Assembly: GCA_029339505.1 (NCBI GenBank)
Contig: JAQISU010000164.1
Coordinates: 1-64,000, forward strand
Direction: 5' to 3'
Origin: Unio delphinus
Lineage: Eukaryota > Mollusca > Bivalvia > Unionida > Unionidae
DNA: 64,000 nt
Under the pieces are notes generated by a model. The model saw only the letters and a program-made list of their open reading frames with translations, was not told the DNA's origin and did not search any database. Of this stretch, positions 7,704 to 64,000 are shown piece by piece. Position 1 is the stretch's first letter, and every line of letters begins with the position of its first letter. The position numbers were made by a program, and so were the translations under genes.

Positions 7704-8252
7704 ATGAATCCATTTAAACAGACATCATTCAAATTTGGGAATTCTCAAGTGGAGTGCGATGCTAAACCTTGCGATTGTAGTGATGCCAGGCTCTGTGACG
7801 TTAGCGATTCAGCAGGATATCGTAGGAACGTTGCTATGACTACTACCCCTATATCTACCCTGGAAAGTGATGCTGTGCGTGTCAAACCTGAGGGATGCGA
7901 AAGCGGTGCGACACGTTATCGTGGACTCCTAGGAATTTCACCGTACCTGCATCGAACAGAAGTAAGGAGAGTCGAATATTCGTTCCCGACGAGTTTGCCT
8001 GAATACTGCCACTTTAAAAGTCGATTTCAAACCTTCAAAGATAAATGGCCAAAATATCTGCCTGGACCAACTCCTGAAGAATTAGCCAGAGCTGGATTTT
8101 TCTACTTGGGCGAAGGGGATAAAGTCAAGTGTTTCAGTTGTGGTGTATCCATTTACGAGTGGGAACATAAAGATTCCGCTTACCTGGAACATGCTCGATG
8201 GTCTCCGAATTGTCAATACCTACCTTTAGTGGGACCTAGTGATTGGAAGTGA
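7704..8252 (+). CDS. BIR-domain (inhibitor-of-apoptosis-like) protein, 182 aa
   Basis: A single baculoviral IAP repeat occupies residues about 104-174, with zinc ligands C143, C146, H163 and C170 in the order CFSCG...EHARWSPNC and the typical ARAGFFYLGEGD core. BIR domains bind caspases or their activators and block cell death. No RING finger follows, so ubiquitin-ligase activity is not expected. The N-terminal 100 residues are low-complexity and unassigned. IAP-like genes are known from insect DNA viruses and some Polinton-class elements. The position directly after the polymerase suggests a role during replication. A cell-division (survivin-like) role is possible, but the lack of a long C-terminal helix argues against it. 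Confidence 0.9.
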   Translation: MNPFKQTSFKFGNSQVECDAKPCDCSDARLCDVSDSAGYRRNVAMTTTPISTLESDAVRVKPEGCESGATRYRGLLGISPYLHRTEVRRVEYSFPTSLPEYCHFKSRFQTFKDKWPKYLPGPTPEELARAGFFYLGEGDKVKCFSCGVSIYEWEHKDSAYLEHARWSPNCQYLPLVGPSDWK

Positions 8253-19721: not shown

Positions 19722-21746
19722 ATGCACAGAGATAACGTAAGACTCGCAGCTTTAGTCAAATGTGGGCTTGCAAAGCCTATTCAAACAAATTTGGCAACAA
19801 AAATGGGTGTTATTGACCTCACGCCTCAGCCAAGTAAGAGACCTGTCCAAATCAAACAGTTAAATTTTTTAAAATCGCCTGAATATCGCCTAAGAAAAGA
19901 GCAGGCAGACAAGTTAAATCCCTTATCTCCCGTTAGATTTAATCTAGGGGACAATTTTGCTAATGAAACAAACACCACTATCAAGAAAAACAAACCAGTA
20001 GGTATTAAAATCATTGAGGTTTCAACCACTCAAAACCTAGACGATACTTTACCTTCTGACACACCAACCCCCCATTCCGCTAACTCGGACAAAACCCAGT
20101 CCATACAAAAGGTAGGGACTAAATCTGATAAGGCCAAAAGTACTACCACACCACTCGGCTGTACACAAATGATAGAGGGTAAAACTGTGCAGACCGGAAC
20201 TAAATTAACACAGGCAAAATTTACCTACGCCCAAATACTTAAAACTGGCAGGAAAGTAGGTCAAATCCAAGCAGACAAAGCTACATTGTACCATAGTAGC
20301 CAAATACCAGAAACATCTGCAAGTAATAGAGAGAGCAAAACAGCTAAAACGGTACAACATATAGAAAACTCCCCCCCCGCTTACAAAGGAAAGGGGAAAC
20401 AGGCGCTAAACCCCAAATATCAAAGACCTGCTAAAAACTCTTCAAAAACTGAAAACAAAAAACAAGTCAGCTCACATTACACAAAAATAAATAAACACTA
20501 TCATAACGTGGATATGACAGTGTTTCTAAAGGGCAAAACAAGCACAATATTTGATCTCACAACCATCAGTATTGCTAAGGCATTACTGAAGGTTCATTCA
20601 GGGCAATGCAAAATTGTACGCCCTAAAACCAATTACATAATTTTGCATTGCAGCACACGTGCACAAGTTGCAAAATTTTTGGAAATAAATAAACTTTGCG
20701 GTATGCCAGTAATTATGGAGCTGCACAAAAAAGCTAAAACATCTCAAGTTACCAAAATCAACAACAACAACAACAAAATCAACAACCACAACAACAATAA
20801 CAATAAAAGTCCAAAAGTAAATAAAGTGCAACAGCAAAGTGAAATTAAACAACAGGAACAACAACAACAACAACAAAGAGAAATCAAACAGCAAAAACAA
20901 CAACAACAACAACAACAAACCCGACCAATAAAATACAAGGCAGTAATGAAATTAAAGGGCCAAATGGCAACATGCACCACTCAACAAATCAAAGACAAAA
21001 TTACACAAGGAGGAAATAAAGTTACTAAAATCTACAAAATAGGTAAAAATCAAAAAGCTACAGATCAAACTGTGGTGGTTGTTGAATCAACAACGCCAAT
21101 ACCAGCAATAATCAAAGTAGGATCTCTGGGAATATATCATAAAACTCAGTCATTTGTGAATAAAGTAAGATTCTGTACAAATTGCCAGCATTGGGGTCAC
21201 TATAAGGTCGCTTGTACCTTTAAACATAGATGCGAAAACTGTGGTGGACCACATACAGGACAATGCAAAAGAGAACAACCTAAATGTGGTAATTGTAAGG
21301 AAGACCATCCCTCTAGCTCTATTAAATGTAGTGCTGCTATTTTTGAAAACGAGGTCATAACTCTTATGAACTCGTCTAATTATGATTATATCACAGCACG
21401 AAATATAATAAATCTTCAAAACCAAAATACTAAAAATCCAAAAAAACAGGAAAAGACAACTCCTACTCCAACATCAACTGTAATTGGCCAAACTATAGAA
21501 ATAACAGAGGTTACTAATAAAACAACCTCTAATAGCCAAACTCAAACAGAAAATTCTATAGACCTTACAGATAATCTGGGTCTAAATACAATAGGCCTAG
21601 CTATTTCTCAAATAGGTCGTTACATTAGTAACGCACAAAACAAAAACAGTAGTTATTTATCTACCCTCACGAACGGGCTCCATGTCCTTATCCAACACGT
21701 AGAGGAGGGTATAAAATCAGGAAAGTTATTAAACCAACATGAATAA
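19722..21746 (+). CDS. LINE-1 ORF1, gag-like nucleic-acid-binding protein, 674 aa
   Basis: Binds LINE RNA in the retrotransposition particle. Three cysteine knuckles lie near residues 485-535 (CTNCQHWGHYKVAC, CENCGGPHTGQC, CGNCKEDHPSSSIKC), after a Gln/Asn-rich low-complexity region at about 345-405. The N-terminal half is Lys/Thr-rich and disordered. The stop overlaps the ORF2 start by 8 nt (CATGAATAA), so ORF2 is probably translated by reinitiation. Confidence 0.88.
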   Translation: MHRDNVRLAALVKCGLAKPIQTNLATKMGVIDLTPQPSKRPVQIKQLNFLKSPEYRLRKEQADKLNPLSPVRFNLGDNFANETNTTIKKNKPVGIKIIEVSTTQNLDDTLPSDTPTPHSANSDKTQSIQKVGTKSDKAKSTTTPLGCTQMIEGKTVQTGTKLTQAKFTYAQILKTGRKVGQIQADKATLYHSSQIPETSASNRESKTAKTVQHIENSPPAYKGKGKQALNPKYQRPAKNSSKTENKKQVSSHYTKINKHYHNVDMTVFLKGKTSTIFDLTTISIAKALLKVHSGQCKIVRPKTNYIILHCSTRAQVAKFLEINKLCGMPVIMELHKKAKTSQVTKINNNNNKINNHNNNNNKSPKVNKVQQQSEIKQQEQQQQQQREIKQQKQQQQQQQTRPIKYKAVMKLKGQMATCTTQQIKDKITQGGNKVTKIYKIGKNQKATDQTVVVVESTTPIPAIIKVGSLGIYHKTQSFVNKVRFCTNCQHWGHYKVACTFKHRCENCGGPHTGQCKREQPKCGNCKEDHPSSSIKCSAAIFENEVITLMNSSNYDYITARNIINLQNQNTKNPKKQEKTTPTPTSTVIGQTIEITEVTNKTTSNSQTQTENSIDLTDNLGLNTIGLAISQIGRYISNAQNKNSSYLSTLTNGLHVLIQHVEEGIKSGKLLNQHE

Positions 21747-24700
21747 TACAACAAAAGTAGTAACCAACTCTCACTCTAATACCACAAATTTAACCATATG
21801 GCAATGGAATTCGCGTAGTCTAGTTATTAATATTAATGAATTAAAATTAAAACTAATTAATACTTTAATAAAACCAGATCTAATTTGTATTCAGGAAACT
21901 AAAATAACAAATAAAACTAAAACATTACCGACAATTGTAGGATATTCACCTGGATTTTTTCAACATAGGAATGAGGGTCAGGGAGGGGGACTTGTTATAT
22001 ATCTTAATAATAACATACCCTCTGCAACAATAGTCCCAATTAACCTACAAGCAATTAATAATTCTGCAATAGAGGTACAAGCTTTGCAAATTAATACAGG
22101 CAAGTTTAAATTTATTTTATATAACTTATATGATCCTGGACATGATATTGCACTAACTCATAAATTAGCATTGAAAGCGCTTAAACTGCATATAGGACAA
22201 AATGAAGCTATGGTGTTAGGTGATTTTAATTCTTACAATGTTACATGGGGAAGTGAATCAACAAATAATAGAGGTAAAAGAGTACAAAATTGGATTAATA
22301 AAACGAAACTTGTATTACTCAATGATGGTACTAAAACAAGACTTAATCCGGTAGATGGCACTTTAGCAGCCTTAGATCTCACACTATGTACTCCCAAACT
22401 TGCTCAATTAGCATCTTGGAGTGTTGATCAAGAAGATAGTATGGGCAGTGATCATTTTCTTATAATAACCAAATTACAAAATTCTGCTCAACTGCAAAAT
22501 GATAATAAACTCCCAAAATGGAACTACCAAAAAGCAGATTGGAATAAGTTTCAACAAAATATTAAATATGAAACACTTGAGGGCATTAAAAATGAAAATA
22601 TAGATCATTACTATGATAACATAATTAATGCTATAACAAGGGCAGCTAATGCCTCAATACCTAAAACAAAAGGTAATCCCACTAAACTTAGAGTCCCTTG
22701 GTGGAATAATGACATTAGTGTAATGAGGAAAAATAAACGTAAAGCACTTAATAAATTTAAACGTACTAATAATACACAGCATTTTAAAGAATATCAAAAA
22801 ATAGAAACTGAACTTAAAAATGTTATTAAAAAAGCTAAGCAAGATACTTGGAGACAATATTGCAGTACCTTTGATTATAAAACAAACTCAAAACAAGTCT
22901 GGGACAAAATTAGAATAATAAGGGGTAAGCATACTAACAATACCCCAAAAATAAATAATACCAATAATCACAAAGAGCAAGCTGACTCATTAGCAAAGCA
23001 CTTCCAAGATATGAGTAGTAATAAAAATCACACTAAGGAATTTCAGGAACATAGATCTAAAATTGAAATAAATAATAAAAATACATTCTCAGATATGGGA
23101 ACTAAAAAGTCCTATCTAAATGATAAAATTACAATTAATGAATGGTATCAAGCTCTTAAAACCAAAAAAGATACATCACCTGGAGAAGATACCATAGGAT
23201 ATTCAGTATATAAGAAGTTACCACTTAAATTTGTTAAGATAATACTTGATATGTATAATCAAATTTGGGAGACAGGAAAACTACCTATTAAATGGAAAAC
23301 AGCAGTAGTAGTACCAATATTAAAACAAAACAAAGATAGGAATGATGTAAATTCATATCGTCCTATCTCTCTTACCAATAATATATGTAAAATAATGGAA
23401 ATAATAATAAATAATAGACTTAAATATCACCTAGAAATCAACAATTTCATATCCAAGAATCAATGTGGTTTTAGAAATAATAGATCTACTATAGATCAAC
23501 TTATTAAATTAGAAACAGCAATTAAATTAGCTTTTAATAATCATCAAAAAAAAAATAGAAACCTCATTGCTGTATTCTTAGACATGGAAAAAGCTTTTGA
23601 CTTAGTATGGACTAAAGGTCTACTAACTAAATTAAACAAATATGGTATAACCGGTAATATATTTAATTTTATCAAAGATTTTCTAACTGAACGTAAAATT
23701 ATAACTAGAGTAGGAACAACATACTCTGAAAAGTATGTATTAGATAATGGTACACCCCAAGGGAGCGTACTCAGCCCCACCTTATTTAATATCATGATTA
23801 ATGATCTAGATACAAATCTAGCTACCTCCAATATTGACCTATCTCAGTTTGCGGATGATAGTGCACTATGGCGCGCTGGAGATCCCAATAATCAAAAACA
23901 TATTGCTGAGATACAACAAACCTTAGACAATATTGGTAGTTGGGCTGATAAATGGGGATTTAAATTTTCACATACAAAAACAGTCGCAGTTGTATTCTCT
24001 CCCTTTAACTATAATAAAATATATCCTAAACTTACTCTCCAAAATCAAAATATAGTTTTCGTAAAAGTAGTTAAATTTCTAGGGATGTATTTTGATCAAA
24101 ACATGAAATGGAAATACCATATTAATTATTTAATTAGTAGATGTAACCTTGATCTAAATCTAATTAGAAGTATCCAAGGCACACATTGGGGTGCTTGTCA
24201 AAATACAATAATGACCCTATATAGATCTTTGATACGTTCAAAGATCGATTATGGGTGTCATGTTTATGCCACAGCATCGCCAGCTTTACTAAATAAAATT
24301 ACCTCAATTCAGCGTAAAGCCCTTCTCCTTGCAACTAAAGCACTACCATCTACTTCCACAGAAGAATTACAAATTCTTACTGGCGAACCATCATTACATC
24401 TCAGAAGACAGGAAATCATGTTAAGATATGTAGCTAGACTGTCAACCCAAAATGATGAGCACCCTACTTTAAAGGCAATTAAAAAATGTACTAAACCACT
24501 TATTAAACGGGGCAAATACTCCACTTCATTTGGCAAACAAATTCTTCGTCTTAAAACAAATTTACCAACTGATATATTTAATGTACAGCAAACTAAAAAT
24601 CCCATTATAATTCCATGGAGATTAAAAACAATAAAAGTAGACACCACTCTACAAGATAAAGGAATTAAATTACAGGACTCCCACTATCTTAAAATGCTTG

Positions 24701-25614
24701 CCAATGAAAAGCTAAATAATGAATATAAAAATTATGTCAAAATATATACGGATGGGTCTAAAAAACTAGACCCTGCAAGAACGGCAGCATCATGGGTTAT
24801 TCCTGAGTTCACTGTTAAACAAGGAATGCGACTACCTGATTACTGCTCCATATACACTGTTGAGTTCTGGGCTATACTTCAGGCATTAAAATGGATACAA
24901 CACTCTAAATTAACCTCAAAAAAATTTCTTATTGTTAGTGATTCATTAAGTGTTCTAAAAACAATTAGCACAAACAACTCTAACAGCAGAAAATTTTTTC
25001 TATATTTATTTCAGTATCAAATAAGCAAACTTAGCATTCAAGATATTGAAATAGACTTTCTATGGGTGCCATCACATATAGATATAAAAGGAAATGATTT
25101 GGCAGATCAAATAGCAAAAGAAAAACTAAATGAATTGACACAAGAACAGGTTCCTTACAGCCATACAGAGATATATAAATTTATTACTGATATGATAAAT
25201 AATATGTGGCAAACTAACTGGAATAACTCAATAAAAGGGAGAGTACTTTATAACATTATGAAAACAGTTAAAAGGAAAGTTACTCCTATAGGTAAGACAA
25301 GAACTCAGCAAATTAAAATGAATAGGCTAATGGTAGGAAAAACAAAACTGGCTAACAGTTTTGGAAAATATTTAGGACCATTTCCACACAATATTAACTG
25401 TTTTATGTGTAACCAAGTGGAAGATTTGGATCATATCTTTAATAAATGTCTTAAAAACATCACATATAGAAATATCCTTAAAAATAAATTGAAAATAAGT
25501 AAATCAACTAAATTATATCCAAAACTTCTTGATCTAAATCAACCTAATATGCAAATGACTGTTACTTATATTATGGATTTTATTACAAACTCAAATCTAA
25601 TGTATAAAATATAA
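21739..25614 (+). CDS. LINE-1 ORF2: APE endonuclease, reverse transcriptase, RNase H, 1291 aa
   Basis: The endonuclease shows QETK near residue 53, LGDFNSYN near 160 and GSDHFL near 236. The reverse transcriptase shows FLDMEKAFD, GTPQGSVLSPTLF and the catalytic FADDS near 705. RNase H carries IYTDGSK near 1003, the VEFWA glutamate and SDSLSVL. A C-terminal Cys/His motif (CFMCNQVEDLDHIFNKC) follows. RNase H after RT points to the I-type superfamily rather than typical Jockey. All catalytic residues look present. Confidence 0.93.
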   Translation: MNNTTKVVTNSHSNTTNLTIWQWNSRSLVININELKLKLINTLIKPDLICIQETKITNKTKTLPTIVGYSPGFFQHRNEGQGGGLVIYLNNNIPSATIVPINLQAINNSAIEVQALQINTGKFKFILYNLYDPGHDIALTHKLALKALKLHIGQNEAMVLGDFNSYNVTWGSESTNNRGKRVQNWINKTKLVLLNDGTKTRLNPVDGTLAALDLTLCTPKLAQLASWSVDQEDSMGSDHFLIITKLQNSAQLQNDNKLPKWNYQKADWNKFQQNIKYETLEGIKNENIDHYYDNIINAITRAANASIPKTKGNPTKLRVPWWNNDISVMRKNKRKALNKFKRTNNTQHFKEYQKIETELKNVIKKAKQDTWRQYCSTFDYKTNSKQVWDKIRIIRGKHTNNTPKINNTNNHKEQADSLAKHFQDMSSNKNHTKEFQEHRSKIEINNKNTFSDMGTKKSYLNDKITINEWYQALKTKKDTSPGEDTIGYSVYKKLPLKFVKIILDMYNQIWETGKLPIKWKTAVVVPILKQNKDRNDVNSYRPISLTNNICKIMEIIINNRLKYHLEINNFISKNQCGFRNNRSTIDQLIKLETAIKLAFNNHQKKNRNLIAVFLDMEKAFDLVWTKGLLTKLNKYGITGNIFNFIKDFLTERKIITRVGTTYSEKYVLDNGTPQGSVLSPTLFNIMINDLDTNLATSNIDLSQFADDSALWRAGDPNNQKHIAEIQQTLDNIGSWADKWGFKFSHTKTVAVVFSPFNYNKIYPKLTLQNQNIVFVKVVKFLGMYFDQNMKWKYHINYLISRCNLDLNLIRSIQGTHWGACQNTIMTLYRSLIRSKIDYGCHVYATASPALLNKITSIQRKALLLATKALPSTSTEELQILTGEPSLHLRRQEIMLRYVARLSTQNDEHPTLKAIKKCTKPLIKRGKYSTSFGKQILRLKTNLPTDIFNVQQTKNPIIIPWRLKTIKVDTTLQDKGIKLQDSHYLKMLANEKLNNEYKNYVKIYTDGSKKLDPARTAASWVIPEFTVKQGMRLPDYCSIYTVEFWAILQALKWIQHSKLTSKKFLIVSDSLSVLKTISTNNSNSRKFFLYLFQYQISKLSIQDIEIDFLWVPSHIDIKGNDLADQIAKEKLNELTQEQVPYSHTEIYKFITDMINNMWQTNWNNSIKGRVLYNIMKTVKRKVTPIGKTRTQQIKMNRLMVGKTKLANSFGKYLGPFPHNINCFMCNQVEDLDHIFNKCLKNITYRNILKNKLKISKSTKLYPKLLDLNQPNMQMTVTYIMDFITNSNLMYKI

Positions 25615-52990: not shown

Positions 52991-53662
52991 TTAACCGAAT
53001 ATTTGATCCAGTCCGATACGATATCGTGTTCGAGGGTCATGTAAATTTATTGTTACAAATCCGTGTGGGGCAGACTGAGCATGACTAAAGAAATTTCTAA
53101 ATTGATTGAAGTCCATATCGGAGCACCATGTCTGCCAAATATTTCGTAGCGTATGTGTATCAACTCCATTAAACACACACAACACATTACAGTTATCTCT
53201 AATCACTTTTGGAATCTGAGTGTAGCGTTGAGTGACATAGATCACGTCCGTGTTTTTATGCCTGCCTCTGGAAAATATTCTAGCAGGATTTTTTTGATTA
53301 TCTAACATGACATCGTCGTATACAACTAAATTGTTGATACTTCCATCGAGGTCATTCACGGATGGCGCCTCGTCAATATCGGTTATAAATTCAATAACAT
53401 CCTCGCCGGCAATCTCTGAAGCGTTTTCATTAAAATCTTTTAGCACTTCATAGCATCGTTGGTCATCTACGCTAGGGGCAATTAAATACAACTTATCCCA
53501 CTTCATCCATCTCATTATTAAATTGAGCAACAATTGCGTCTTGCCGGATCCAGATGGCCCGATTATAATTGCGCGGATAGAGTTTGGTAGCGCTGCATGA
53601 TGCTTCACTGGTTCTCTTGTTTTAGTCGCTGAAAAATCAATTATATTCATATCTCTATACAT
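52991..53662 (-). CDS. FtsK/HerA-type packaging ATPase, 223 aa
   Basis: Walker A is GPSGSGKT (residues 35-42) and Walker B is NLVVYDDVM (about 111-119). They are followed by SRGRHKNTDVIYVTQRYTQI, the counterpart of the element 1 segment. It is expected to pump DNA into capsids. The start codon is only 5 bp from the divergent start of the zinc-ribbon gene, so the two share a minimal promoter. Slightly shorter than the element 1 enzyme but complete. Confidence 0.92.
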   Translation of the reverse strand: MYRDMNIIDFSATKTREPVKHHAALPNSIRAIIIGPSGSGKTQLLLNLIMRWMKWDKLYLIAPSVDDQRCYEVLKDFNENASEIAGEDVIEFITDIDEAPSVNDLDGSINNLVVYDDVMLDNQKNPARIFSRGRHKNTDVIYVTQRYTQIPKVIRDNCNVLCVFNGVDTHTLRNIWQTWCSDMDFNQFRNFFSHAQSAPHGFVTINLHDPRTRYRIGLDQIFG

Positions 53663-53667
53663 AAATT

Positions 53668-53865
53668 ATGGATCTATATTGCGTGAAGTGTAAGGCGCGT
53701 ACTGGCACAGATGACTTGACGACGATTACAACTAAAAATAACCGATCAGCGCTTTCTGGTAAATGTGTACAGTGTAGTACAAAGAAATTTAGATTTGTTT
53801 CTAAACCCAAGGAACCCAAGGAACCTTTAAAAAAAAACGAGGAGGTGATATCACTGCCAAATTAG
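53668..53865 (+). CDS. zinc-ribbon protein (DUF5679-like), 65 aa in zero frame
   Basis: Four cysteines as CVKC (C5, C8) and CVQC (C33, C36) frame a short ribbon like the small DUF5679 proteins. A Lys/Pro linker (KPKEPKEPLKK) follows. The zero-frame stop is at 53,865, but just before it lies A_AAA_AAC in exact phase, after which the -1 frame encodes a phospholipase A2 domain. The short product may be the main form, with a longer frameshift product made at lower level. Confidence 0.8.
   Translation: MDLYCVKCKARTGTDDLTTITTKNNRSALSGKCVQCSTKKFRFVSKPKEPKEPLKKNEEVISLPN
53832..53838 (+). promoter_or_regulatory. -1 ribosomal frameshift heptamer (A_AAA_AAC)
   Basis: Zero-frame codons are AAA AAA AAC, and the heptamer ends a run of nine A. 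The -1 frame from 53,838 is open to 54,197. A CCCTGGAA/TTCCAGGG stem lies at 53,873-53,921, rather far downstream for a stimulator. T_TTA_AAA at 53,826 is a second in-phase candidate. Confidence 0.7.
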
Positions 53866-54197
53866 CAAAACTCCCTGGAACCCCATGGGCAAAATACCCC
53901 GGAGAAAAACACCTTCCAGGGTATAGTTATTGTGGACCGGGAACAAGACTTGATATCAGACTCAATGATCAAAATCAGCCCCGACCCGGTGAGGAACCAA
54001 TAAACGCTATTGATAAGGCCTGTCACCTTCATGATGTTGCTTATAAAAGCAGCAATTTGCAACACAGGCATCTAGCAGATGTGAAATTAATTCATGCGTT
54101 GAATGCCATTCCTGATAAATCCTTCAAAGAAAAATTGGCTTCATTTTTGATAAAATCGGCAATGAAAAGCAAATTGATGTTAGGTGCTGGTAATTAA
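53838..54197 (+). CDS. phospholipase A2 domain (parvovirus VP1-like), -1 frame extension, 119 aa
   Basis: It has no ATG of its own until near its end. It contains the calcium-loop motif CGPGT (tail residues 32-36) and the catalytic His-Asp motif HLHDVAY (H65, D66), preceded by WAKYPGEKHLPGY typical of virion-borne PLA2. Such domains breach endosomal membranes during entry of parvoviruses and are reported in some adintovirus-type genomes. It fills the 340-bp gap between the zinc-ribbon stop and integrase start. Expression as a -1 fusion to the ribbon protein is inferred. An indel in the A-run or a spliced form are alternatives. Confidence 0.8.
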   Translation, partial: RGGDITAKLAKLPGTPWAKYPGEKHLPGYSYCGPGTRLDIRLNDQNQPRPGEEPINAIDKACHLHDVAYKSSNLQHRHLADVKLIHALNAIPDKSFKEKLASFLIKSAMKSKLMLGAGN

Positions 54198-54204
54198 TAG
54201 CAAC

Positions 54205-55155
54205 ATGGAATCTATTTATTATTCCCCAAGAGGATACTGGAAGGGTAACGCTGCAATCAGTAAACTCGCTAGCGCCGCAAAAGTGAAAAAAACCACTGCG
54301 GCTCATTGGTTATCCAAACAGGCACTATGGCAAATTTATCTACCACCGCCTAAACAAATTCAATTCTCGCATTTTGATGTAACCGGACCCAATGAAGTTC
54401 ATCAGGCTGATATATTATTTCTGCCACATGATCGTGGTTACAAATATGCATTAACTGTAGTTGATATTGCAAGTCGATACAAAGAAGCAGAACCGTTAAA
54501 AACAAAATCAGCCACTGAAGTGGCTTCTGCATTTGAAAGGATTTATCGAAGGAGCCCTCTGCACTGGCCAAATCTGTTACAAGTTGACCCGGGCAAGGAA
54601 TTTCAGGGTGCAGTGTTATCTACAATGAAATATCACAATGTCGCTATCAGACGAGGGCATACTGCACTGCATCGTGATCAGGCCATTGTAGAACGATTTA
54701 ATCGGATTCTTGCTGAACGGTTATTTGGATATCAATATGCAAAAGAATTCATCCAAGAAAAAAGATCCCGTGAATGGGTTAAGAGATTACCAGGTGTAGT
54801 TACCGCACTGAATAACGAGATTACTAGAACCATCAACATGAAACCTATCAACGCGATTAAAAAGAAGTCGATACCTGAAAAACCACAAAAGGATTTTAGC
54901 GTTTCCCAACCAATTCTTGGTAGTAATGTCATTGTGAGGTATTTATATGAACCAGGAGAGCTTGAGGGTGGCACAAAAAGGGCTACTGATCCTATTTGGA
55001 GTGTTACTGCACACAAGATATCTAGTATAACACGATCTACGGGTAGACCTCCAATCTATAAACTGGATTCAACTGCCCCTCAACGGGGTTTTACTAGACA
55101 ACAATTACAAGTGATACCCGAGGATACTCAATTGCCACCCCATGGTCTTAACTAG
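54205..55155 (+). CDS. retroviral-type integrase, 316 aa
   Basis: rve core with D69 (HQADILF), D128 (QVDPGKEF) and E163 (AIVERFNR), spacing about 35. The N-terminal 45 residues match the helical region of the element 1 integrase (SIYYSPRGYWKG against SIYYDPAHPAGY). The C-terminal 90 residues look like an SH3-like DNA-binding part and not a chromodomain. The ATG at 54,205 is chosen over an upstream GTG. The 3' end overlaps the -1 tail of the convergent polymerase-helicase gene by 8 bp. Confidence 0.93.
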   Translation: MESIYYSPRGYWKGNAAISKLASAAKVKKTTAAHWLSKQALWQIYLPPPKQIQFSHFDVTGPNEVHQADILFLPHDRGYKYALTVVDIASRYKEAEPLKTKSATEVASAFERIYRRSPLHWPNLLQVDPGKEFQGAVLSTMKYHNVAIRRGHTALHRDQAIVERFNRILAERLFGYQYAKEFIQEKRSREWVKRLPGVVTALNNEITRTINMKPINAIKKKSIPEKPQKDFSVSQPILGSNVIVRYLYEPGELEGGTKRATDPIWSVTAHKISSITRSTGRPPIYKLDSTAPQRGFTRQQLQVIPEDTQLPPHGLN

Positions 55156-55363
55156 CACCCTTGCGTCTATTGCACTCAAGACAAGTCAACATCACATTAT
55201 TTCTGACATGACCGAGATTGTTATTTTTTCTGTCTACGGTGAATTGGCGAGGATCCTTATCCGAATACTGCCAACGCATTATACAATTGCAACTCGCGCA
55301 GTGATTATTCTGTTGTTGCTTCAGAGTAATTATTAATTCAGCATCAATATCAAATTCTCGTTG
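55148..55363 (-). CDS. HNH-type domain, -1 frame extension of the polymerase-helicase, about 70 aa
   Basis: The -1 frame after A_AAA_AAC reads through the zero-frame stop and encodes NHCASCNC, then FTVDRKNNNLGHVRNNVML and TCLECNRRKG. This is the zinc-bound HNH layout: two CxxC pairs around an Asp/Asn/His core. No start codon suits an independent gene. It occupies what would otherwise be a gap before the integrase stop. Possible role: nicking or resolving DNA during replication. An indel in the A9 run is the alternative explanation. Confidence 0.72.
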   Translation of the reverse strand, partial: QREFDIDAELIITLKQQQNNHCASCNCIMRWQYSDKDPRQFTVDRKNNNLGHVRNNVMLTCLECNRRKGAS

Positions 55364-58257
55364 TTTTTTTTTGTCTTGTTGTTTGTAACCGGAGAGTTTT
55401 TTTTATCAATAATATCATCTATTGTGGTGTCATTATCATCGCCAATGATTTCATCATCGAAGACAATTCTTCGAAGTTGATTTATTTTTCGTACTCTGGA
55501 TACTGAAAGATAGACTAAATTAAACCATTCTATGCGATTATCTACCATCCAAACAATTGTATTCGATATTGTCAATCCCTGTGAAGAATGTATCGTCGCT
55601 GCGTATCCTAGCGTCCATGGGGATTTATTAGCACGCAATGCATCTTCAACAACATTGATATCAACCAGCACAATATCATTTAATACGAGAATCTGCTTTT
55701 CACTCTGTCCTGGAATATCAACTTCGATGTTCTGTTTTCGTGTATCCGATGGCCTATAACATAACGGTACTGGAAGTGTTGCAAATTTTTGTTTATGCAA
55801 TTCAAATAACTTGATCTGAAGTGTATCCCTGACTATTTTTCTACTTGCAATGATTAAATCATTTGGTCTCCACATTTCCCAGAAATCATTCATGGGAGTT
55901 TCCGAAATTATTTCACGGGTTATTTCACACTGGATTCTATCCGGTTGTAATCTAATTAGTTTCTTCAATTCTTTTAATTCATTATCAAGTGATCTATGAT
56001 CGGTATCAATTTCTTCATAATAGTCTACAAAACCCTTTAGCCATTCATGGGGGGATGCACCGACAAATGGTGGTGGTTGCCCGTGATCACCGCACATGAC
56101 GACTTTTGTATTCTTCAATAACAACCACTCAAGAAATATTTTTAAGACATCTTCTGACACTGTGTCTATTTCATCCCACATGATGATTTCAGGAATAAAT
56201 TTCTCTCCCATGCGCTCAGGAGTCCATTTATCTCCCTTCCATCGGAAAAAGCTGTGATAAGTGCAAGCATTTACCCCTCTCTGTATCATTTCTCTTGCAA
56301 GTCTGTGAGTCGGTGTTAGTACAATCATGTTTGGATTGGAAACGCTAGCGTTTCTACGGAATAACTCAATTACCCGGGTTGTTTTTCCTGACCCGCCACA
56401 ACCGTTTAAATAAACTGTTTTATATCTACAGATTGGATCAGAAATCGGTGGTGCACTAGAAAATTCTGAACACTGATTGCTTTCTAAGTAATTATTTTCA
56501 ATGGTAACATCTGCTGATTGAATATAATCATGAATCATTTCTTTCTTAATTCTCCATGTCCCCCATTTCTCGTTGCCAGTAGCCTTAAAATCAGCCATTT
56601 TGCTATTTATGTAAAATGAGTCAGTGGCAACTCTAACTGCGGTGGTAGGAAATCTATTGATCATTGAAAACAGATTAATAGAAGCATAACCGAGCATAGA
56701 AGCTCTTAAGTGTGTGTACTGCGGATGGTATCCATCATTGTAGGTAACAATTGTACCCAATTTGGTTCCATCGGACATAAATGCGTCCTTACGATTGACA
56801 TATAAGCCCTTATTCGTTAAATCCGTGATTACAAAATCGTATTCAGCATTGTCTATAATCAATCGTGAAGAATATTTCGTATTATCATCTTTGCTACCTT
56901 GGGTAAATTTACCGATTATTCTTCGTCCAAGATTTTTTGCTTCATTGTTTCTGATTTCAAATAACTGTTGGGACCAATCCATGATTTGTTGTTCATTAAA
57001 ATCAGGAAACAGTTTTCGCTCTTCGCTAATTATATTTTCTAGATCAGGTTGTGGTAACCAGACTGATTTCTGTGCTCGATAGGATATAATTGCTTCACTG
57101 ACAATTAATGATTTTAACATCTTACAATCAAGCATATACCGTAATAACACTATTGGCATCCAGTGTTTTTCAGACATGTGTTTACCAATCCAAAGATAAC
57201 TACACGGATGAAGTCCTTCAGCCATTTCAAATGATACTACACAAGCGAATCCGGTTAAATCAAAATCAGGAAGTGGTCCATTAATAGCAACACGGATCAT
57301 TTCGTGTGTAGGGTGTCCAAATCGTTTGAAATATTTCTCACACTCTCCATACCCAAGAAAACTTCCTGGATAACACGCAATCATATCAACGGAAATAACG
57401 GTATCAGCGGTGTATTTTGTGTTCCATAATCCGCCTTGGCTGTATTCAAGACAGGACAATTTGACATCTGATAAAAACTCACTTCGTGTTGGTTTCCACG
57501 CGTTTTTCTTTCTAGCAAAATGTGCTGCAATGGATGGTACTGTGAAACAGTTTGCTAATAATTGATCGTTGTCTTCTCCGTCCCCAGAAAACTCACTAGC
57601 TAGTTGTTTCATTTGATTCTGCAGCTCTTCAGTACGGTATAATTCTCCGTTAGGCCTTACAAACTGATCAAATTTGCATTCTTCGTCTGAAGTACTATGA
57701 AACAGCCACACTGACACAGGATCGTTTTTACTCAAATGGTAAATAGCATCAAATAATTTCTGCTCTGAAAAAAACTCTTCGGTTTGGGATAGATATTTTA
57801 CGGTTCTATCCCGTGGGAATATTGTTACTGCAGATGACCACGCGTGTGCGTTATGATCAATAATTTCAATGGGAGCTCCCTGTGATTTATATTTCGATTC
57901 GTATAATACTTCTCCGGTGATTGTCCTTACCGATATTGGAAATCTTAATGATTTTTCTAATTTAGTTATATCCTGAATTGTTGCCCCATGCTCTTTTACC
58001 GTGAACTCCCACTCGGTTATTTTTTTTCGTCTTAGATCAGTTAGTTTATTTCCCCGGGACGCATTTGTGAAGTGTTCTATTATTCGTTCTGCTACACAAT
58101 TTAGCCCTGTCGAATATTTCATGGGTGCTAGTTTTGAAATATCAGGTTTTTCATTGAGCGGATAGATCCCGTAAACAACTGCTGTGACAGGATAAGATCT
58201 TTCGTAGTAGGGTTTATCAATTCCAGTCAAAATTCCCGGTTTTGAATCCTGATTCAC
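55333..58257 (-). CDS. polymerase-B-like domain fused to SF1 helicase, 974 aa
   Basis: Residues 284-550 align with PolB palm motifs: A is VDMIACYPGSF (D291), the motif B region is NLGRRIIGKFTQG (about 442-454) and C is VRVATDSFYI (544-547). Motif C keeps the second, catalytic Asp but the first is Ala, and motif B lacks the canonical Asn-x-x-Tyr-Gly. Residues 612-930 form an SF1 helicase: Walker A NGCGGSGKTT (618-627), IIMWDEID (691-698), CGDHGQPPPF (722-731), ATIHSSQGLT (887-896) and VYLSVSRVR. No 3'-5' exonuclease motifs are evident in the first 280 residues. It is the likely replication protein of element 2. The start at 58,257 overlaps the preceding gene by 41 nt. Confidence 0.85.
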   Translation of the reverse strand: MNQDSKPGILTGIDKPYYERSYPVTAVVYGIYPLNEKPDISKLAPMKYSTGLNCVAERIIEHFTNASRGNKLTDLRRKKITEWEFTVKEHGATIQDITKLEKSLRFPISVRTITGEVLYESKYKSQGAPIEIIDHNAHAWSSAVTIFPRDRTVKYLSQTEEFFSEQKLFDAIYHLSKNDPVSVWLFHSTSDEECKFDQFVRPNGELYRTEELQNQMKQLASEFSGDGEDNDQLLANCFTVPSIAAHFARKKNAWKPTRSEFLSDVKLSCLEYSQGGLWNTKYTADTVISVDMIACYPGSFLGYGECEKYFKRFGHPTHEMIRVAINGPLPDFDLTGFACVVSFEMAEGLHPCSYLWIGKHMSEKHWMPIVLLRYMLDCKMLKSLIVSEAIISYRAQKSVWLPQPDLENIISEERKLFPDFNEQQIMDWSQQLFEIRNNEAKNLGRRIIGKFTQGSKDDNTKYSSRLIIDNAEYDFVITDLTNKGLYVNRKDAFMSDGTKLGTIVTYNDGYHPQYTHLRASMLGYASINLFSMINRFPTTAVRVATDSFYINSKMADFKATGNEKWGTWRIKKEMIHDYIQSADVTIENNYLESNQCSEFSSAPPISDPICRYKTVYLNGCGGSGKTTRVIELFRRNASVSNPNMIVLTPTHRLAREMIQRGVNACTYHSFFRWKGDKWTPERMGEKFIPEIIMWDEIDTVSEDVLKIFLEWLLLKNTKVVMCGDHGQPPPFVGASPHEWLKGFVDYYEEIDTDHRSLDNELKELKKLIRLQPDRIQCEITREIISETPMNDFWEMWRPNDLIIASRKIVRDTLQIKLFELHKQKFATLPVPLCYRPSDTRKQNIEVDIPGQSEKQILVLNDIVLVDINVVEDALRANKSPWTLGYAATIHSSQGLTISNTIVWMVDNRIEWFNLVYLSVSRVRKINQLRRIVFDDEIIGDDNDTTIDDIIDKKNSPVTNNKTKKNNENLILMLN
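55363..55369 (-). promoter_or_regulatory. -1 ribosomal frameshift heptamer (A_AAA_AAC) in polymerase-helicase gene
   Basis: Zero-frame codons read ACA AAA AAA AAC, near residue 965 of 974. The -1 frame then stays open for 71 codons. Confidence 0.7.
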
Positions 58258-59005
58258 TCACGGTGACAGTTTTTTTACCCCTGAGAATGGGTTCAAATTT
58301 ATCCCTAATAATCCATTTGTCATCCTCACAGATAATGAATTTGATTCGGAAAAAATGACTTTTTTCCCCAACATTTGAGATTATCACTGCTGCTTTTTCA
58401 TCATTCATGGTAGCGTCAACAACACCATCAATTCGAAATGTTGACCAACAATAAGATGCTCCATCACGCTTGAATTCATTAAAACAGTCTCTGATGGGTT
58501 TATCAAGAATTTTATTCTTGGGTGTATTAGAAACTATATCAAGATTGAATTGAGCATCCTTCCATGGTGATCTCATGTTTCCGTCTCTTGGACGTTTGTT
58601 ACGTTTTTTGGGTCTATCGCGATTAAATCTAGGATTGATTTTCAACAATCTCTTAAACTCTTTCATGTTTCCGTCTCTTGGACGTTTTGGACGTTTTTTT
58701 GGTCTATCGATATTAAATTTAGGGTTAATTTTCAATAATCTCTTAAACTCTTTCATGTTTCCGTCTCTTGGACGTTTTGGACGTTTGTTTCTGTTTACTA
58801 CACTTTTTTTTGGTCTATCGAGATTAAATCTAGGATTGATTTTCAATAATCTCTTAAACTCTTTCATGTTTCCGTCTCTTGGACGTTTTGGACGTTTTTT
58901 TGGTCTATCGAGATTAAATCTAGGATTGATTTTTAATAATCTCTTGAACTCTCTATCGGTATTGATTTTAGCATTTTTCGAAGTCAATCTCTTGAACTCC
59001 TTCAT
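58217..59005 (-). CDS. repeat protein with basic 30-residue repeats, 262 aa
   Basis: Four to five N-terminal repeats of a unit beginning MKEFKRLLKINPRFNLDRPK and ending in Arg/Lys-Pro-Arg-Asp-Gly (DNA period 90 bp, one copy 111 bp) form a highly basic region. It is followed by a unique globular domain of about 115 residues (from SPWKDAQFNLDIV onward). Probably DNA-binding via the repeats. I know no family. It overlaps the polymerase-helicase start and is divergent from the gene at 59,030, with a TATATATAAAA between the two starts. Confidence 0.7.
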   Translation of the reverse strand: MKEFKRLTSKNAKINTDREFKRLLKINPRFNLDRPKKRPKRPRDGNMKEFKRLLKINPRFNLDRPKKSVVNRNKRPKRPRDGNMKEFKRLLKINPKFNIDRPKKRPKRPRDGNMKEFKRLLKINPRFNRDRPKKRNKRPRDGNMRSPWKDAQFNLDIVSNTPKNKILDKPIRDCFNEFKRDGASYCWSTFRIDGVVDATMNDEKAAVIISNVGEKSHFFRIKFIICEDDKWIIRDKFEPILRGKKTVTVSESGFKTGNFDWN

Positions 59006-59029
59006 TCTATATATAAAACAAGCATTTAA

Positions 59030-59425
59030 ATGAAAGATTTATGTATAATGAACCAATGCAAATGGCTCATGATGGGAAATGTAACCCCGTGTAACAAATC
59101 GTGCAGAAAAAATGAGTACTGTAGGTATCATATGCAAAGTTTTCGACGTGGAAGTCTTGGTCCATTACCCTGTATTCGATGTGGGGTTGGGGTTAAGGGA
59201 AGATCACAATTGTGTATTGATTGTGGTGGTAAGCGATATAGGGAATTGAAGCGTTATTATGATAAAAGAATAAAAAATGGACAATCCATCAGAAATTTTG
59301 ACCCTGAAAAAGTCTTTGACCCTGATAACGTCACTGACAAAATCATAAGAACTCCGCAAGACTACATCGAAAGATTTTCCAGTGATGTAATTATTGAACC
59401 AAACACTGAATTAGACAAACAATAG
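59030..59425 (+). CDS. Cys-rich zinc-binding protein, 131 aa
   Basis: An N-terminal CNKSC...CRYH cluster is followed by CIRCGVGVKGRSQLCIDCGG, a clear zinc ribbon around residues 45-65, then a charged helical tail. Probably nucleic-acid binding or transcriptional. Function unknown. Confidence 0.65.
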   Translation: MKDLCIMNQCKWLMMGNVTPCNKSCRKNEYCRYHMQSFRRGSLGPLPCIRCGVGVKGRSQLCIDCGGKRYRELKRYYDKRIKNGQSIRNFDPEKVFDPDNVTDKIIRTPQDYIERFSSDVIIEPNTELDKQ

Positions 59426-59435
59426 AATAGTATAT

Positions 59436-59915
59436 ATGAACCAAGAATTCAGACCACACCCAGTGATTACAAATTATGAAGCATCCAGTGATGGTACTGT
59501 CAGAAACCGTAGACTGAAGAAACCAGTTGGTGTTGTGACTAATCAAGGGTATTTGATGTTTGGTGCTGGAAAGAAAAAATATCACAATCATCGTTTCGTG
59601 TATGAGTGTTTCCATGGATTGATCAATGATGGTTTTGTTATCGATCATAAAGATTCCAATCCAAAGAATAATTCTTTATCAAATCTGCAAGCTATCACAC
59701 AAAGTGAGAATACCAAACGAGTAAAGACTGGCACTTGCTCAAAAAAAGCGAGACCAGTAAAATCTTTGAACGAAGAAAAAATATTTTCATCTATGAATGA
59801 AGCCGGTAAGTATTTCAATATTTGTCGATCTTCAGTACGAAAAGTTGCAGAGGGGATTTATCGATCTGCTATTTCAAAAAAGAGCGAGCAAAAAGTTCAA
59901 TTTAGTTATGTCTAA
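59436..59915 (+). CDS. free-standing HNH homing endonuclease with NUMOD-type domains, 159 aa
   Basis: NUMOD4-like N-terminus (YEASSDGTVRNRRLKKPVG), HNH_3-type core (YHNHRFVYECFHG, FVIDHKDSNPKNNSLSNLQA) and a C-terminal NUMOD1-like helix-turn-helix (SSMNEAGKYFNICRSSVRKV). Such enzymes spread by cutting cognate DNA and are typical of phages and giant viruses. It lies between the zinc-ribbon gene and a short gene that overlaps its end by 8 bp. Confidence 0.85.
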   Translation: MNQEFRPHPVITNYEASSDGTVRNRRLKKPVGVVTNQGYLMFGAGKKKYHNHRFVYECFHGLINDGFVIDHKDSNPKNNSLSNLQAITQSENTKRVKTGTCSKKARPVKSLNEEKIFSSMNEAGKYFNICRSSVRKVAEGIYRSAISKKSEQKVQFSYV

Positions 59916-60306
59916 TGCGTCATATTTTTCAATTAGAGATATGTCATGTTATAGAATAATGAATTCTGAAAACATGAATAGCATCATAGTTGAAATAGCA
60001 AAATTGAAAAATCAGGATATCAAACTATCAGATGGGCTAAATCCTGATCAAATTGTGTCTGATTTTCAGGATATAGAATACGGGGTTAGCACTAACAAGT
60101 ATATGCTACCCAAGAAGTATGCACTCATCAAAAGAATTCAGAATTCTATTAAAGACTCTCTTTCATTTTCCAGTGACATCAGTGTGTTCGTCCTGTTGTA
60201 TACTATCGTAGAAGGAATACGAAAAGAATTAGGTAACGAATACGAATTGAAAAAAGAAGTCAACTCTAAAATTAGAAACCTACGGGCGTTAATTCAGGAA
60301 AATTGA
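59908..60306 (+). CDS. hypothetical protein, 132 aa
   Basis: Unrecognised, largely helical (for example SDGLNPDQIVSDFQDIEYG and VFVLLYTIVEGIRKELG). The ATG at 59,908 lies inside the end of the HNH gene. No cysteine motif or membrane segment is convincing. Confidence 0.55.
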   Translation: MSNASYFSIRDMSCYRIMNSENMNSIIVEIAKLKNQDIKLSDGLNPDQIVSDFQDIEYGVSTNKYMLPKKYALIKRIQNSIKDSLSFSSDISVFVLLYTIVEGIRKELGNEYELKKEVNSKIRNLRALIQEN

Positions 60307-60419
60307 TTACCCGACCATTGATTGCCCGACCATTTTATCATCGACCCTCATTTTTTTTAGCTGACCCTCAAGGGGGATGTCAAAAATCGATGGACGATGT
60401 GTCAGATTGATCAAAACTA

Positions 60420-60559
60420 GAATGTTGAAAGTGTCAGTATTATTTATTTTATATACAATTATGACACTTTCAACATCATTGATAGAGCCGTTAAAACAAT
60501 CAAATAACACTTCCATGACCGTATCAAAAATCATCCGACATGTCATTGATGTCAAAATA
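60420..60559 (+). ncRNA. hairpin cassette 1
   Basis: A perfect 15-bp stem (ATGTTGAAAGTGTCA at 60,422-60,436 with its complement at 60,462-60,476) encloses a 25-nt AT-rich loop. The downstream block is shared with cassette 2. It resembles a pre-miRNA or other structured RNA in size, or a protein-binding cruciform. Confidence 0.7.
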
Positions 60560-60684
60560 GAATGGAGCAACTCACAGTATTAATTATTTTATATACAATT
60601 ATGTGACTTGCTCCATCATTGATAGAAGGTGTCTCACGATGAAATAACACTTCCATGACTGTGTTAAAAAATCATCCGACATGT
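60560..60684 (+). ncRNA. hairpin cassette 2
   Basis: Stem ATGGAGCAACTCACA (60,562-60,576) pairs with 60,602-60,616 at 14 of 15 positions. The 25-nt loop differs from cassette 1 by one base. Spacing between cassettes is 140 nt. Confidence 0.7.
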
Positions 60685-60739
60685 AACAAAAGTGGGAAAA
60701 AGGGTTTTACAATTGAAAAATGGTTTCTGATTTCAAATA

Positions 60740-61420
60740 ATGGTCAATGAAGCATTAACAACCCGATTGGCTCGTGAACGATTAGATGCAATTAAGAGAT
60801 TTGTACCAATTCGTGACTCTGTACGGAATAAACTGCAACAACGACAGAGTTTACAAACTGATTTTGCTCTGGGGTCTGAAGAGTTGTTTAAACCAGTAAC
60901 CACAGCAACGAAAGGGGTAGAGCGTGCTTTACTGGGAGATGGTCCCGAGACGGGAAAATCTGTTATTGGTGAACTTGAAAAACTAGCAGCGAAAACTGAA
61001 CAAACTGAAAAAACTGATCCGAAAAAAACGACTGTTTCTCTGGTGAATAAATTTACTGATCATGCTAAAATAGAAATAAAAAAACCTAGTTTATTGAAAT
61101 CAAAGGATTATCAAGCCTTTGGTAATTTTGCTGCTCAAAGCTATAATTCAAAAAAAGATTTTTTAAAGGACGAGTATAAAAATGATAGAATATCAAGTAA
61201 TGATTGGTTCGATAATTTGTATAAACTAAATAAAGGGATTGGTCATTTGAATAAGGATGAGATAGGATACAAGGAATTTCAAAGGGGAATTAGTTATTAT
61301 AAAAGAGAACAAATAGAAGAGCGACAACGAGAATTAGAAGAACGACGTCAAACACCAACACGTAGACAAACAAGAAGACAAAAAAACAACAACTACCACC
61401 TGATGATGATGATGATTTAG
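60740..61420 (+). CDS. structural-type protein, zero-frame part, 226 aa
   Basis: A charged, helical protein between the hairpins and the pVI-like gene, of no recognised family. The zero frame ends in an artefact-like Met run (ATG repeats) soon after an A_AAA_AAC heptamer at 61,381. The -1 frame continues with coding-like sequence. Acidic/basic repeats ERRQTPTRRQ appear on both sides of the frame change, which supports one continuous product. Confidence 0.65.
   Translation: MVNEALTTRLARERLDAIKRFVPIRDSVRNKLQQRQSLQTDFALGSEELFKPVTTATKGVERALLGDGPETGKSVIGELEKLAAKTEQTEKTDPKKTTVSLVNKFTDHAKIEIKKPSLLKSKDYQAFGNFAAQSYNSKKDFLKDEYKNDRISSNDWFDNLYKLNKGIGHLNKDEIGYKEFQRGISYYKREQIEERQRELEERRQTPTRRQTRRQKNNNYHLMMMMI
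61381..61387 (+). promoter_or_regulatory. -1 ribosomal frameshift heptamer (A_AAA_AAC), third example
   Basis: Zero-frame codons CAA AAA AAC. The -1 frame from 61,387 is open to 61,761. Confidence 0.7.
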
Positions 61421-61761
61421 AAGAACGACGTCAAACACCAACACGGAGACAAAAAAAACAAGAAGAGCCTAATGATGATTATTTACAAGAAACGAATTTA
61501 GAAAAACTAGATGAAGCAACTGGTTATAGCGGAAGTGGACTGCAAAATCCAAGGATTGGAAACACTTGTCCTGATAGTGTTATCAATGATATATCACGAT
61601 TAGATGTTCTTGTAGGAGGATTCCGAGCTGGAAATAACTCTCCAGAAATAATTAATGAAGCAGCTGATATCTGTAGACGGTTATTTGCCGGCGGTATCAT
61701 GGATATCAAAACATATCGAGATTTTATTGACGAGTTAGCAAATGGGTATCATAGCGATTAA
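61387..61761 (+). CDS. -1 frame extension of the 60,740 gene, 124 aa
   Basis: It begins with a Gln/Asp-rich stretch and a second ERRQTPTRRQ unit, then a compact domain (LDVLVGGFRAGNNSPEIINE, GGIMDIKTYRDFIDELANG). From memory this resembles a tail seen in proteins of other invertebrate Polinton-like elements. It has no suitable start codon. It fills the space up to the next gene at 61,795. Confidence 0.68.
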   Translation, partial: QQLPPDDDDDLEERRQTPTRRQKKQEEPNDDYLQETNLEKLDEATGYSGSGLQNPRIGNTCPDSVINDISRLDVLVGGFRAGNNSPEIINEAADICRRLFAGGIMDIKTYRDFIDELANGYHSD

Positions 61762-62301: not shown

Positions 62302-63720
62302 ATGTTCAAAAGGTCACCTGATCCAGCATTTGATATAGACGCCCCAGTCCCCAAGAATGATTCTGTACGCGATTATCAATATTACGCCTATCATGCCATA
62401 AACTCAAATAGTCGAGCAAGAATTGATCTTCAAGTCCATGATACCAGTAAATACTTTTTACCCTGCGAAGCATTTATTGAAGTAGAAGGAGAAATTGTAA
62501 CAGCTGCTGATACTCCTACTGTACCAGCACCGTATCCAGCTGGTACTCAAGTCGGTTTTGTCAATAATGGTATTATGGCGCTATTTGAGAGTGCTAGATA
62601 TCTCATTGATGGAAAAGAAATCGAGTCGATAGATCGCGATGTTGATGTGGCTACAACAATAATCGGGTTAGCGAGATATTCCGATGATTATACAAGATCA
62701 GCAGGACCTTCTATGATGTTTGCAAAAGATGCTACAAATACCGCTGGAGGAAAACAATTCGTTGTAAGACGACCAAATGATCGTGCTGCTAACCCTGTTC
62801 CTGCTGGTATCGAGGATATGATTATAAACAACGATCCCAATTTCAATCTAGGAGCTGCAACACGAAACGCAATGTTGCAAGGAGAGCGTAAATCATTTTC
62901 ATGCGCGATTCCACTGCATCACATATTTGGATTCTGTAGAAACGTCAGAAAAGTTATCTACGGGGCGAAGCATACAGTATCGCTTGTACGAAAAAGTGAT
63001 GATAACGACGCAATCTGGAGGATTCCAGCAGATGCTGCAGCCCCCAATGCTGATGCCGGTAGAGTCGATTTAACAAAAATATCATTGTGGATGCCAGTGT
63101 TGACTCCAGCAATCACCGCAGAAGAACGATTACTATCATTTATGGACCAAGGAGGAAAGTCGTTGTTGAGTTGGCTAACCGTGAGTACAGATGTGAAGCA
63201 ATCAAATATCAACGGGTTATTCACTTGGAATCTAGCATCAAAACAAGGCGTTTCTGCGCCACGTCATATATTCGTAGCGTTACAGGATAACATACGAGTT
63301 AATAATCAACAACAAAGTCATATGATATTTGATCAGTTAGGTGTGAAAGACGTCTCACTGAGAATAAACGGCCAGCAGGAACCATCTGAGGATATACAAC
63401 TTAATTACACAGAAAATCATATTGCACGAGTTTATCATCGTCTGTTGTCATTTATGGCACGCGACCAAAATGTCGATACTGGTTTGCAAATATCACAATA
63501 TGATTTTAAAAATTTGTATCCGATCTATTACTTCTCACTGGAACATCTCGATTTGACAAGACAGTCAGTTGTTGATATACACTTTAGAGCTAATGTGACT
63601 CGTGGTGCTGATATTGCTGATTATAGAGCGGTTGCTGTCATTCTCAGTGATAAATCAATGCTACTCGAAGGTGTTGGTGGAAGAATGAGAGTGGTAGATG
63701 CACCAGTGGAAAATCTTTGA
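62302..63720 (+). CDS. major capsid protein (double jelly-roll type), 472 aa
   Basis: Divergent from the element 1 capsid protein but with typical blocks: an N-terminal SRARIDLQVHDTSKYFLPCE strand, FVNNGIMALFESARYLIDGK, GERKSFSCAIPLHHIFGFCR and a C-terminal YFSLEHLDLTRQ. Length and position after the pVI-like gene fit. The family assignment rests on pattern recognition, not on a structural search. Confidence 0.85.
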   Translation: MFKRSPDPAFDIDAPVPKNDSVRDYQYYAYHAINSNSRARIDLQVHDTSKYFLPCEAFIEVEGEIVTAADTPTVPAPYPAGTQVGFVNNGIMALFESARYLIDGKEIESIDRDVDVATTIIGLARYSDDYTRSAGPSMMFAKDATNTAGGKQFVVRRPNDRAANPVPAGIEDMIINNDPNFNLGAATRNAMLQGERKSFSCAIPLHHIFGFCRNVRKVIYGAKHTVSLVRKSDDNDAIWRIPADAAAPNADAGRVDLTKISLWMPVLTPAITAEERLLSFMDQGGKSLLSWLTVSTDVKQSNINGLFTWNLASKQGVSAPRHIFVALQDNIRVNNQQQSHMIFDQLGVKDVSLRINGQQEPSEDIQLNYTENHIARVYHRLLSFMARDQNVDTGLQISQYDFKNLYPIYYFSLEHLDLTRQSVVDIHFRANVTRGADIADYRAVAVILSDKSMLLEGVGGRMRVVDAPVENL

Positions 63721-63769: not shown

Positions 63770-64000
63770 ATGTCATATAGTGTTATTAGTGTTACGTTAA
63801 CTCCTGGTCAAATAAAAAAATTGCAATCAGAATCGGCTAAAAAATGTGGAACCACAATCACGTTGAAACCTAATCAAATGACTGGTGGTGCAAATAAATT
63901 ATCACTGACAACTCGTCAAATAAAACATTTCAATGATGCACTTGCAGCCAAAAAAGGTGTCCAGATTACTCTTTCTGCGGCTGCTATTAAAAATATGATA
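63770..64000 (+). CDS. partial virion-type protein, cut by the window edge
   Basis: At least 77 residues from the ATG at 63,770. It has repeated modules of the form leucine-threonine-x-x-Gln-Ile-Lys (LTPGQIKKL, LTTRQIKHF), each followed by a short beta-like ITL segment. Similar modular proteins sit after the capsid gene in related invertebrate elements as far as I recall. Function unknown. Confidence 0.65.
   Translation, partial: MSYSVISVTLTPGQIKKLQSESAKKCGTTITLKPNQMTGGANKLSLTTRQIKHFNDALAAKKGVQITLSAAAIKNMI

Follow-up and report, generated by a model that had tools for sequence, protein, structure and literature searches.

Do three genes of one animal DNA element, each carrying the same slippery heptamer, use frameshifting to make extended proteins, or do these heptamers mark places where the genes have been damaged? 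The question is raised by a 64,000-nucleotide (nt) stretch from the bivalve Unio delphinus (contig JAQISU010000164.1, hereafter the window) and concerns its element 2, which combines a double jelly-roll capsid protein, an A32-like ATPase and a retrovirus-type integrase, and is thus Polinton-like/Maverick-like. An earlier note on the window had proposed that A_AAA_AAC heptamers at three switches into a coding -1 frame represent a general strategy for making minor extended forms. Comparison of the natural copies of the element points to a divided answer, to which we assign a probability of about 0.7: site 1, which links a DUF5679 zinc-ribbon-like protein to a phospholipase A2 (PLA2) domain, would be a conserved -1 slippage site, and sites 2 and 3 would not be programmed.

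All three heptamers were found in zero-frame phase and close to the zero-frame stop, with 34, 37 and 40 nt from the first base of the heptamer to the end of the zero-frame open reading frame (ORF) at sites 1, 2 and 3, respectively (Table 1). The -1 frames, described previously as open for 70-124 codons, are open for 119, 71 and 124 codons. The polymerase/helicase ORF, at the end of which site 2 lies, has a second in-phase heptamer 70 nt before its end, absent from the earlier note. In total, an in-phase heptamer less than 45 nt from the ORF end is present in 3 of the 11 ORFs of element 2, compared with a mean of 0.06 under codon shuffling, and none of 2,000 shuffles reached three such ORFs; the three near-end heptamers are not a product of chance. 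Codon shuffling cannot separate programmed sites from one-base losses in A-runs, because both leave an in-phase heptamer near the stop. Indeed, loss of one base from an A-run that precedes a C gives the same picture, and conservation must therefore decide.

The content of the -1 frames is uneven. The expectation that each encodes a domain or repeat proper to its gene was borne out at site 1, where the PLA2 domain is recognized with confidence (PF08398), and there is no ATG from the last stop to the phospholipase core in this frame of the window, as had been claimed. At site 2, the match to an HNH domain is weak and below the family cut-off, and at site 3 no convincing Pfam match was obtained, the -1 frame continuing by eye the RRQ repeat of the zero frame.

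The element is repeated in the 2.5-Gb host genome, where a set of 40 scored matches, counting the window itself, shows 99-100% identity over the site-1/integrase region. We read sites 1 and 2 and the site 3 stretch in the 39 other copies; for 20 of these, the joint at the polymerase N-terminus was read as well. At site 1, 33 of the 39 copies combine a -1 position of PLA2 with a heptamer in phase; PLA2 is in the +1 frame in four, in one open frame with DUF5679 in one, and in one frame with a stop in the remaining one. The 38 copies scorable at site 2 fall into 14 with one open frame, 13 with a -1 relation (12 with an in-phase heptamer) and 11 with a +1 relation. Site 3 was unscorable in 11 of the 39 copies, and the other 28 comprise 14 with one open frame, two with one frame and a stop, seven +1 and five -1, two of the latter with the heptamer. 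In no single copy of the 39 are the three heptamers all in phase. The A-run length of the window at site 1 is kept in 34 of 39 copies, in a set that was picked by similarity to a site-1-containing query and is therefore mildly biased towards this length, whereas an equally long run at site 2 keeps its length in 17 of 37 measured copies (p 2e-4), and at site 3 the run length of the window recurs in 1 of 20. The site 2 linker contains two homopolymers and a short tandem repeat, the lengths of which differ between copies.

Since the frame relations at sites 2 and 3 differ among copies and unbroken copies exist, we regard them as variation of individual copies. Both sites are best read as homopolymer and short-repeat indels in genes that read straight through in many other copies, rather than as programmed sites. 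A fourth break in element 2, which is +1 and lacks a heptamer, lies at the polymerase N-terminal joint, where 17 of 20 copies have one open frame, two are +1 and one is -1. The proposed general strategy thus reduces to a single site, and the claim that indels arising at random would not agree in direction does not hold, because at sites 2 and 3 shifts in either direction occur among the copies. The check suggested in the earlier note, that heptamer and phase be conserved while the flanks vary, turned out positive for site 1 and negative for sites 2 and 3. Assembly error was rejected as an explanation of site 1, as several run lengths are resolved in one assembly and database relatives share the frame relation. 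It should be noted that the middle of the site 3 gene (61006-61380) is unaligned in about half of the 39 copies, whereas both ends align, a pattern that looks like block exchange between variants.

Besides the near-identical copies, site 1 was found in more distant subfamilies. A search of the host genome with a database relative of the -1 type, P0085, gave 34,169 candidate places, of which 150 were scored; all 150 reach the query end, well past the heptamer, and many have one in-frame stop. As the query itself is of the -1 type, this search demonstrates that such subfamilies exist, not their share. Five of these matches (L139-L143) were read: they are 84-87% identical to the window, and in all five the heptamer is in phase, the -1 frame encodes PLA2, and this frame lacks an ATG from its last stop to the PLA2 core. 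The 26-nt block that contains the A-run and the heptamer is identical in these five sequences and the window, while the linker before the block has five lengths among the six. When the run length is left free, a pattern built on this block matches the genome at 14,889 places, against none in the reversed control, so the element family is extraordinarily abundant there. The run length of the window accounts for 9,272 of the 14,889 matches, a count obtained with exact flanks that describes the block itself, not DUF5679 or the upstream phase copy by copy. Among the first 100 matches listed, 64 have the length of the window, 30 have other lengths and six have an impure run.

The -1 frame at site 1 is under purifying selection, both within the -1 copies and between -1 subfamilies, whereas PLA2 would be expected to drift if the arrangement were dead. 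Within the copies, we compared variants in the 34 sequences with the -1 arrangement (the window and 33 copies), using singletons as a contrast because they should mostly arise after insertion. PLA2-frame variants common to at least two copies are 10 synonymous to 3 non-synonymous, against 4 to 22 for singletons (Fisher test, 3e-4), the expected synonymous share being about 25%. The integrase gives a similar contrast (36:14 for shared variants against 29:50 for singletons), and the PLA2 frame is uninterrupted in 38 of 39 copies, the integrase frame in 33 of 39. Shared alleles are combined in many different mosaics among the -1 copies, so the -1 arrangement is not one recent event. Between subfamilies, the ratio of non-synonymous to synonymous substitution rates (dN/dS) among the window and the five other-subfamily copies, summed over pairs that are not independent, is 0.12 for PLA2 read in the -1 frame, 1.62 when this DNA is read in the zero frame and 0.25 for DUF5679.

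In the same approximately 99% identical copies (L011-L049), mosaics of shared allele blocks extend across the integrase, which suggests recombination between elements.

The arrangement also extends to database proteins, where it and the heptamer were judged by eye from the protein letters. In a search with the zero-frame protein, 12 of 14 relatives pass the A-run into DNA whose -1 frame encodes PLA2. When the query was the N-terminal part of a relative, 18 of 21 relatives were of the -1 type, although this search missed some known one-frame relatives, such as P0075; 11 proteins are common to the two sets. Comparing the zero-frame tail of 11 relatives with that of the window, 117 of 129 differences fit a change at codon position two in the zero frame, corresponding to the silent position three in the -1 frame (null expectation 45%). 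Some of the relatives come from the limpet Lottia gigantea. In a tree of the DUF5679 domain, which is poorly resolved and includes 8 of 10 attempted loci, the others being left out for want of a clean start, the -1 label clusters: it requires 6 changes as opposed to 15.2-15.3 after shuffling, and 0 of 500 shuffles were as low.

Several observations weigh against programmed slippage at site 1. Both Pfam domains lie in one ORF in 19 of 75 database relatives (of the 75, six read by eye as -1 and one as +1), and the asparagine of the heptamer is lacking in 6 of the 18 -1-type relatives. On the PLA2 tree, the -1 label is unclustered, with 7 changes compared with 6.6 after shuffling, in a poorly resolved tree with only seven -1 rows. 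A run length that brings both domains into a single frame occurs in 983 of the 14,889 pattern matches, and sister copies of the one-frame kind have likewise been amplified in the host genome (150 scored). All 30 sister loci examined are one-frame, some with stops, as follows from the one-frame query by which they were chosen. The shared and singleton variants of DUF5679 (5:3 against 6:13, p 0.14) do not differ significantly. Finally, folding of the region downstream of site 1 revealed no convincing stimulatory structure in the window (z -0.37 to -1.91) or in five copies (z -1.39 to -1.67); by this folding, which omits pseudoknots, a short stem begins 2 nt past the heptamer, with z of about -1.4 to -1.9 at 92 nt.

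Under the proposed mechanism, translation of DUF5679 would normally terminate shortly past the A-run, a fraction of ribosomes would slip back one base on A_AAA_AAC and continue in the PLA2 frame, and a minor DUF5679-phospholipase product would result. The arrangement, its conservation, the selection on the -1 frame and the lack of an AUG ahead of the domain are established; the slippage itself, probably ribosomal, and the share and role of its product are inferred. The VP1 phospholipase of parvoviruses is a virion entry factor, and the minor product of element 2 could plausibly have a comparable role. A more tentative proposal, which we hold at slightly below even odds, is that the invariant slippery A-run, kept in thousands of copies, sets the ratio of the zinc-ribbon protein to the phospholipase form, and that run length moves lineages between frameshift and one-frame modes.

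Two other explanations of site 1 seem equally unlikely. In the first, site 1 is also an inactivating indel: a progenitor lost its phospholipase by chance and was then amplified. The mutability of A-runs in these copies, the frequency of one-frame relatives and the scatter of -1 forms on the PLA2 tree all fit such a history, which leaves unexplained the purifying selection seen at both levels, the open PLA2 frame in nearly all copies and the predominance of one run length in the genome. In the second, slippage occurs in transcription, so that mRNAs differ in run length and the fused protein is read in a single frame from some of them. Nine consecutive A could plausibly serve as the substrate, and this process would explain the constancy of the run length and the absence of a stimulatory structure equally well; however, the in-phase A_AAA_AAC and the next codons are identical in the six sequences, beyond what a bare run would need. 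Slightly less likely again is separate expression of the phospholipase frame via splicing or non-AUG initiation. In three relatives (P0003, P0011 and P0012) the PLA2 frame does contain an ATG at a more upstream position, whereas the window and the five other-subfamily copies have none ahead of the core, and separate expression would leave the invariance of the slippery block unexplained. That all three sites are programmed is highly improbable and was rejected, since the excess of in-phase heptamers near stops is outweighed by the variation of sites 2 and 3 between near-identical copies, the lack of any copy with all three and the heptamer-free +1 break.

Table 1. Features of element 2 and its three heptamer sites in the window
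Feature	Coordinates	Strand	Evidence
A32-like packaging ATPase	52991..53662	-	PF04665 2.2e-12
DUF5679 zinc-ribbon-like protein, zero-frame ORF, 65 aa	53668..53865	+	Pfam PF18930 1.3e-13; domain open in 39/39 copies
Site 1 block, 26 nt, A-run and in-phase heptamer (53832-53838)	53826..53851	+	identical in the window and L139-L143
Phospholipase A2 domain, -1 frame, 119 aa	53838..54197	+	PF08398 2.5e-12; open in 38/39 copies; dN/dS 0.12
Retrovirus-type integrase	54184..55155	+	PF00665 6.7e-08; open in 33/39 copies
HNH-like piece, site 2 -1 frame, 71 aa	55151..55363	-	PF01844 0.0032, 18.0 bits (cut-off 21.4); one open frame with upstream ORF in 14/38
Site 2 heptamer, variable-length linker	55363..55369	-	frame relation differs among copies
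Long ORF with superfamily 1 helicase domain, 974 aa	55333..58257	-	PF13245 1.2e-11; Dda-like helicase PHROG 1.9e-14
Repeat-rich N-terminal ORF, joint to polymerase/helicase ORF broken +1	58217..59005	-	one open frame in 17/20 copies
Site 3 heptamer	61381..61387	+	run length of the window in 1/20 copies
C-terminal piece, site 3 -1 frame, 124 aa	61387..61761	+	one open frame with upstream ORF in 14/28
Double jelly-roll major capsid protein	62302..63720	+	PF21738 1.1e-17

Among the other genes of element 2, the 974-aa ORF matches helicases only and has no Pfam polymerase match; by eye it contains polymerase-like motifs. The N-terminal ORF ahead of it includes an in-frame repeat of four copies of about 90-111 nt (58511-58952). 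At 59436-59915 lies a free-standing HNH endonuclease gene (PF13392 3.4e-13); its match to NUMOD1 is weak and does not reach the cut-off (0.00043). Two 73-nt direct repeats (60414-60486 and 60554-60626) are 82% identical, and each forms a hairpin by eye, the stem sequences differing and the loop being kept. The window stops at 64,000, shortly past the capsid gene. Element 1 (1217-33617) is a Polinton with 346-nt inverted repeats, 99% complementary and about 32 kb apart, and carries a DNA_pol_B_2 gene, a chromodomain integrase and a gene with a BIR (inhibitor of apoptosis) domain (7704-8252; PF00653 1e-23). A reverse-transcriptase element (21739-25614) sits inside element 1.

Several known systems resemble site 1 in part. 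Retroviruses and other viruses use A_AAA_AAC for -1 frameshifting, and site 1 shares both heptamer and phase with these sites; unlike them, it is a predicted site, lacks a clear downstream stimulator and belongs to a DNA element rather than a retrovirus. Continuous-frame DUF5679-phospholipase proteins, found in sister copies and database relatives, have the same two domains in the same order and have been amplified too, but their linkers are different. The PLA2 of element 2 belongs to the same PF08398 family as the VP1 phospholipase of parvoviruses and has the YxGPG and HD motifs by eye, whereas the element lacks a parvovirus capsid and carries its phospholipase attached to DUF5679 instead of a VP protein. 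Among solved structures nothing matched the PLA2 piece, and scans of viral contigs with the PLA2 piece, a PLA2 alignment, the capsid and the integrase found no relative. On mammalian ribosomes, A_AAA_AAC is among the most shift-prone heptamers, according to a passage of the review PMC5009743. Another parallel is offered by the adintoviruses, for which an excerpt of PMC11071296 describes a -1 frameshift near the 3' end of Penton genes, predicted with KnotInFrame. As far as this excerpt goes, both cases concern animal DNA viruses that carry an integrase, with a slippery site close to the stop of the zero frame and an alternative C-terminus; the gene is a different one, and the Penton site is presented there as a prediction only, whereas site 1 is backed by conservation among copies and by selection. 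No PLA2, DUF5679 or frameshift terms were found in PMC11071308, and our search, made mostly outside the subscription literature, retrieved one relevant paper, with predictions for a different gene, and apart from it no publication on DUF5679, on Mavericks/Polintons with programmed ribosomal frameshifting or on a conserved site of this type in an endogenous DNA element with a double jelly-roll capsid. Frameshifting itself is a known mechanism.

If this reading is true, an endogenous DNA element of an animal, one with an integrase and a double jelly-roll capsid, would possess at site 1 a -1 frameshift site supported by selection. The coexistence of the two arrangements among thousands of natural copies offers a ready-made comparative test of how slippery runs originate and persist, and element 2 shows how a programmed site can be separated from homopolymer damage.

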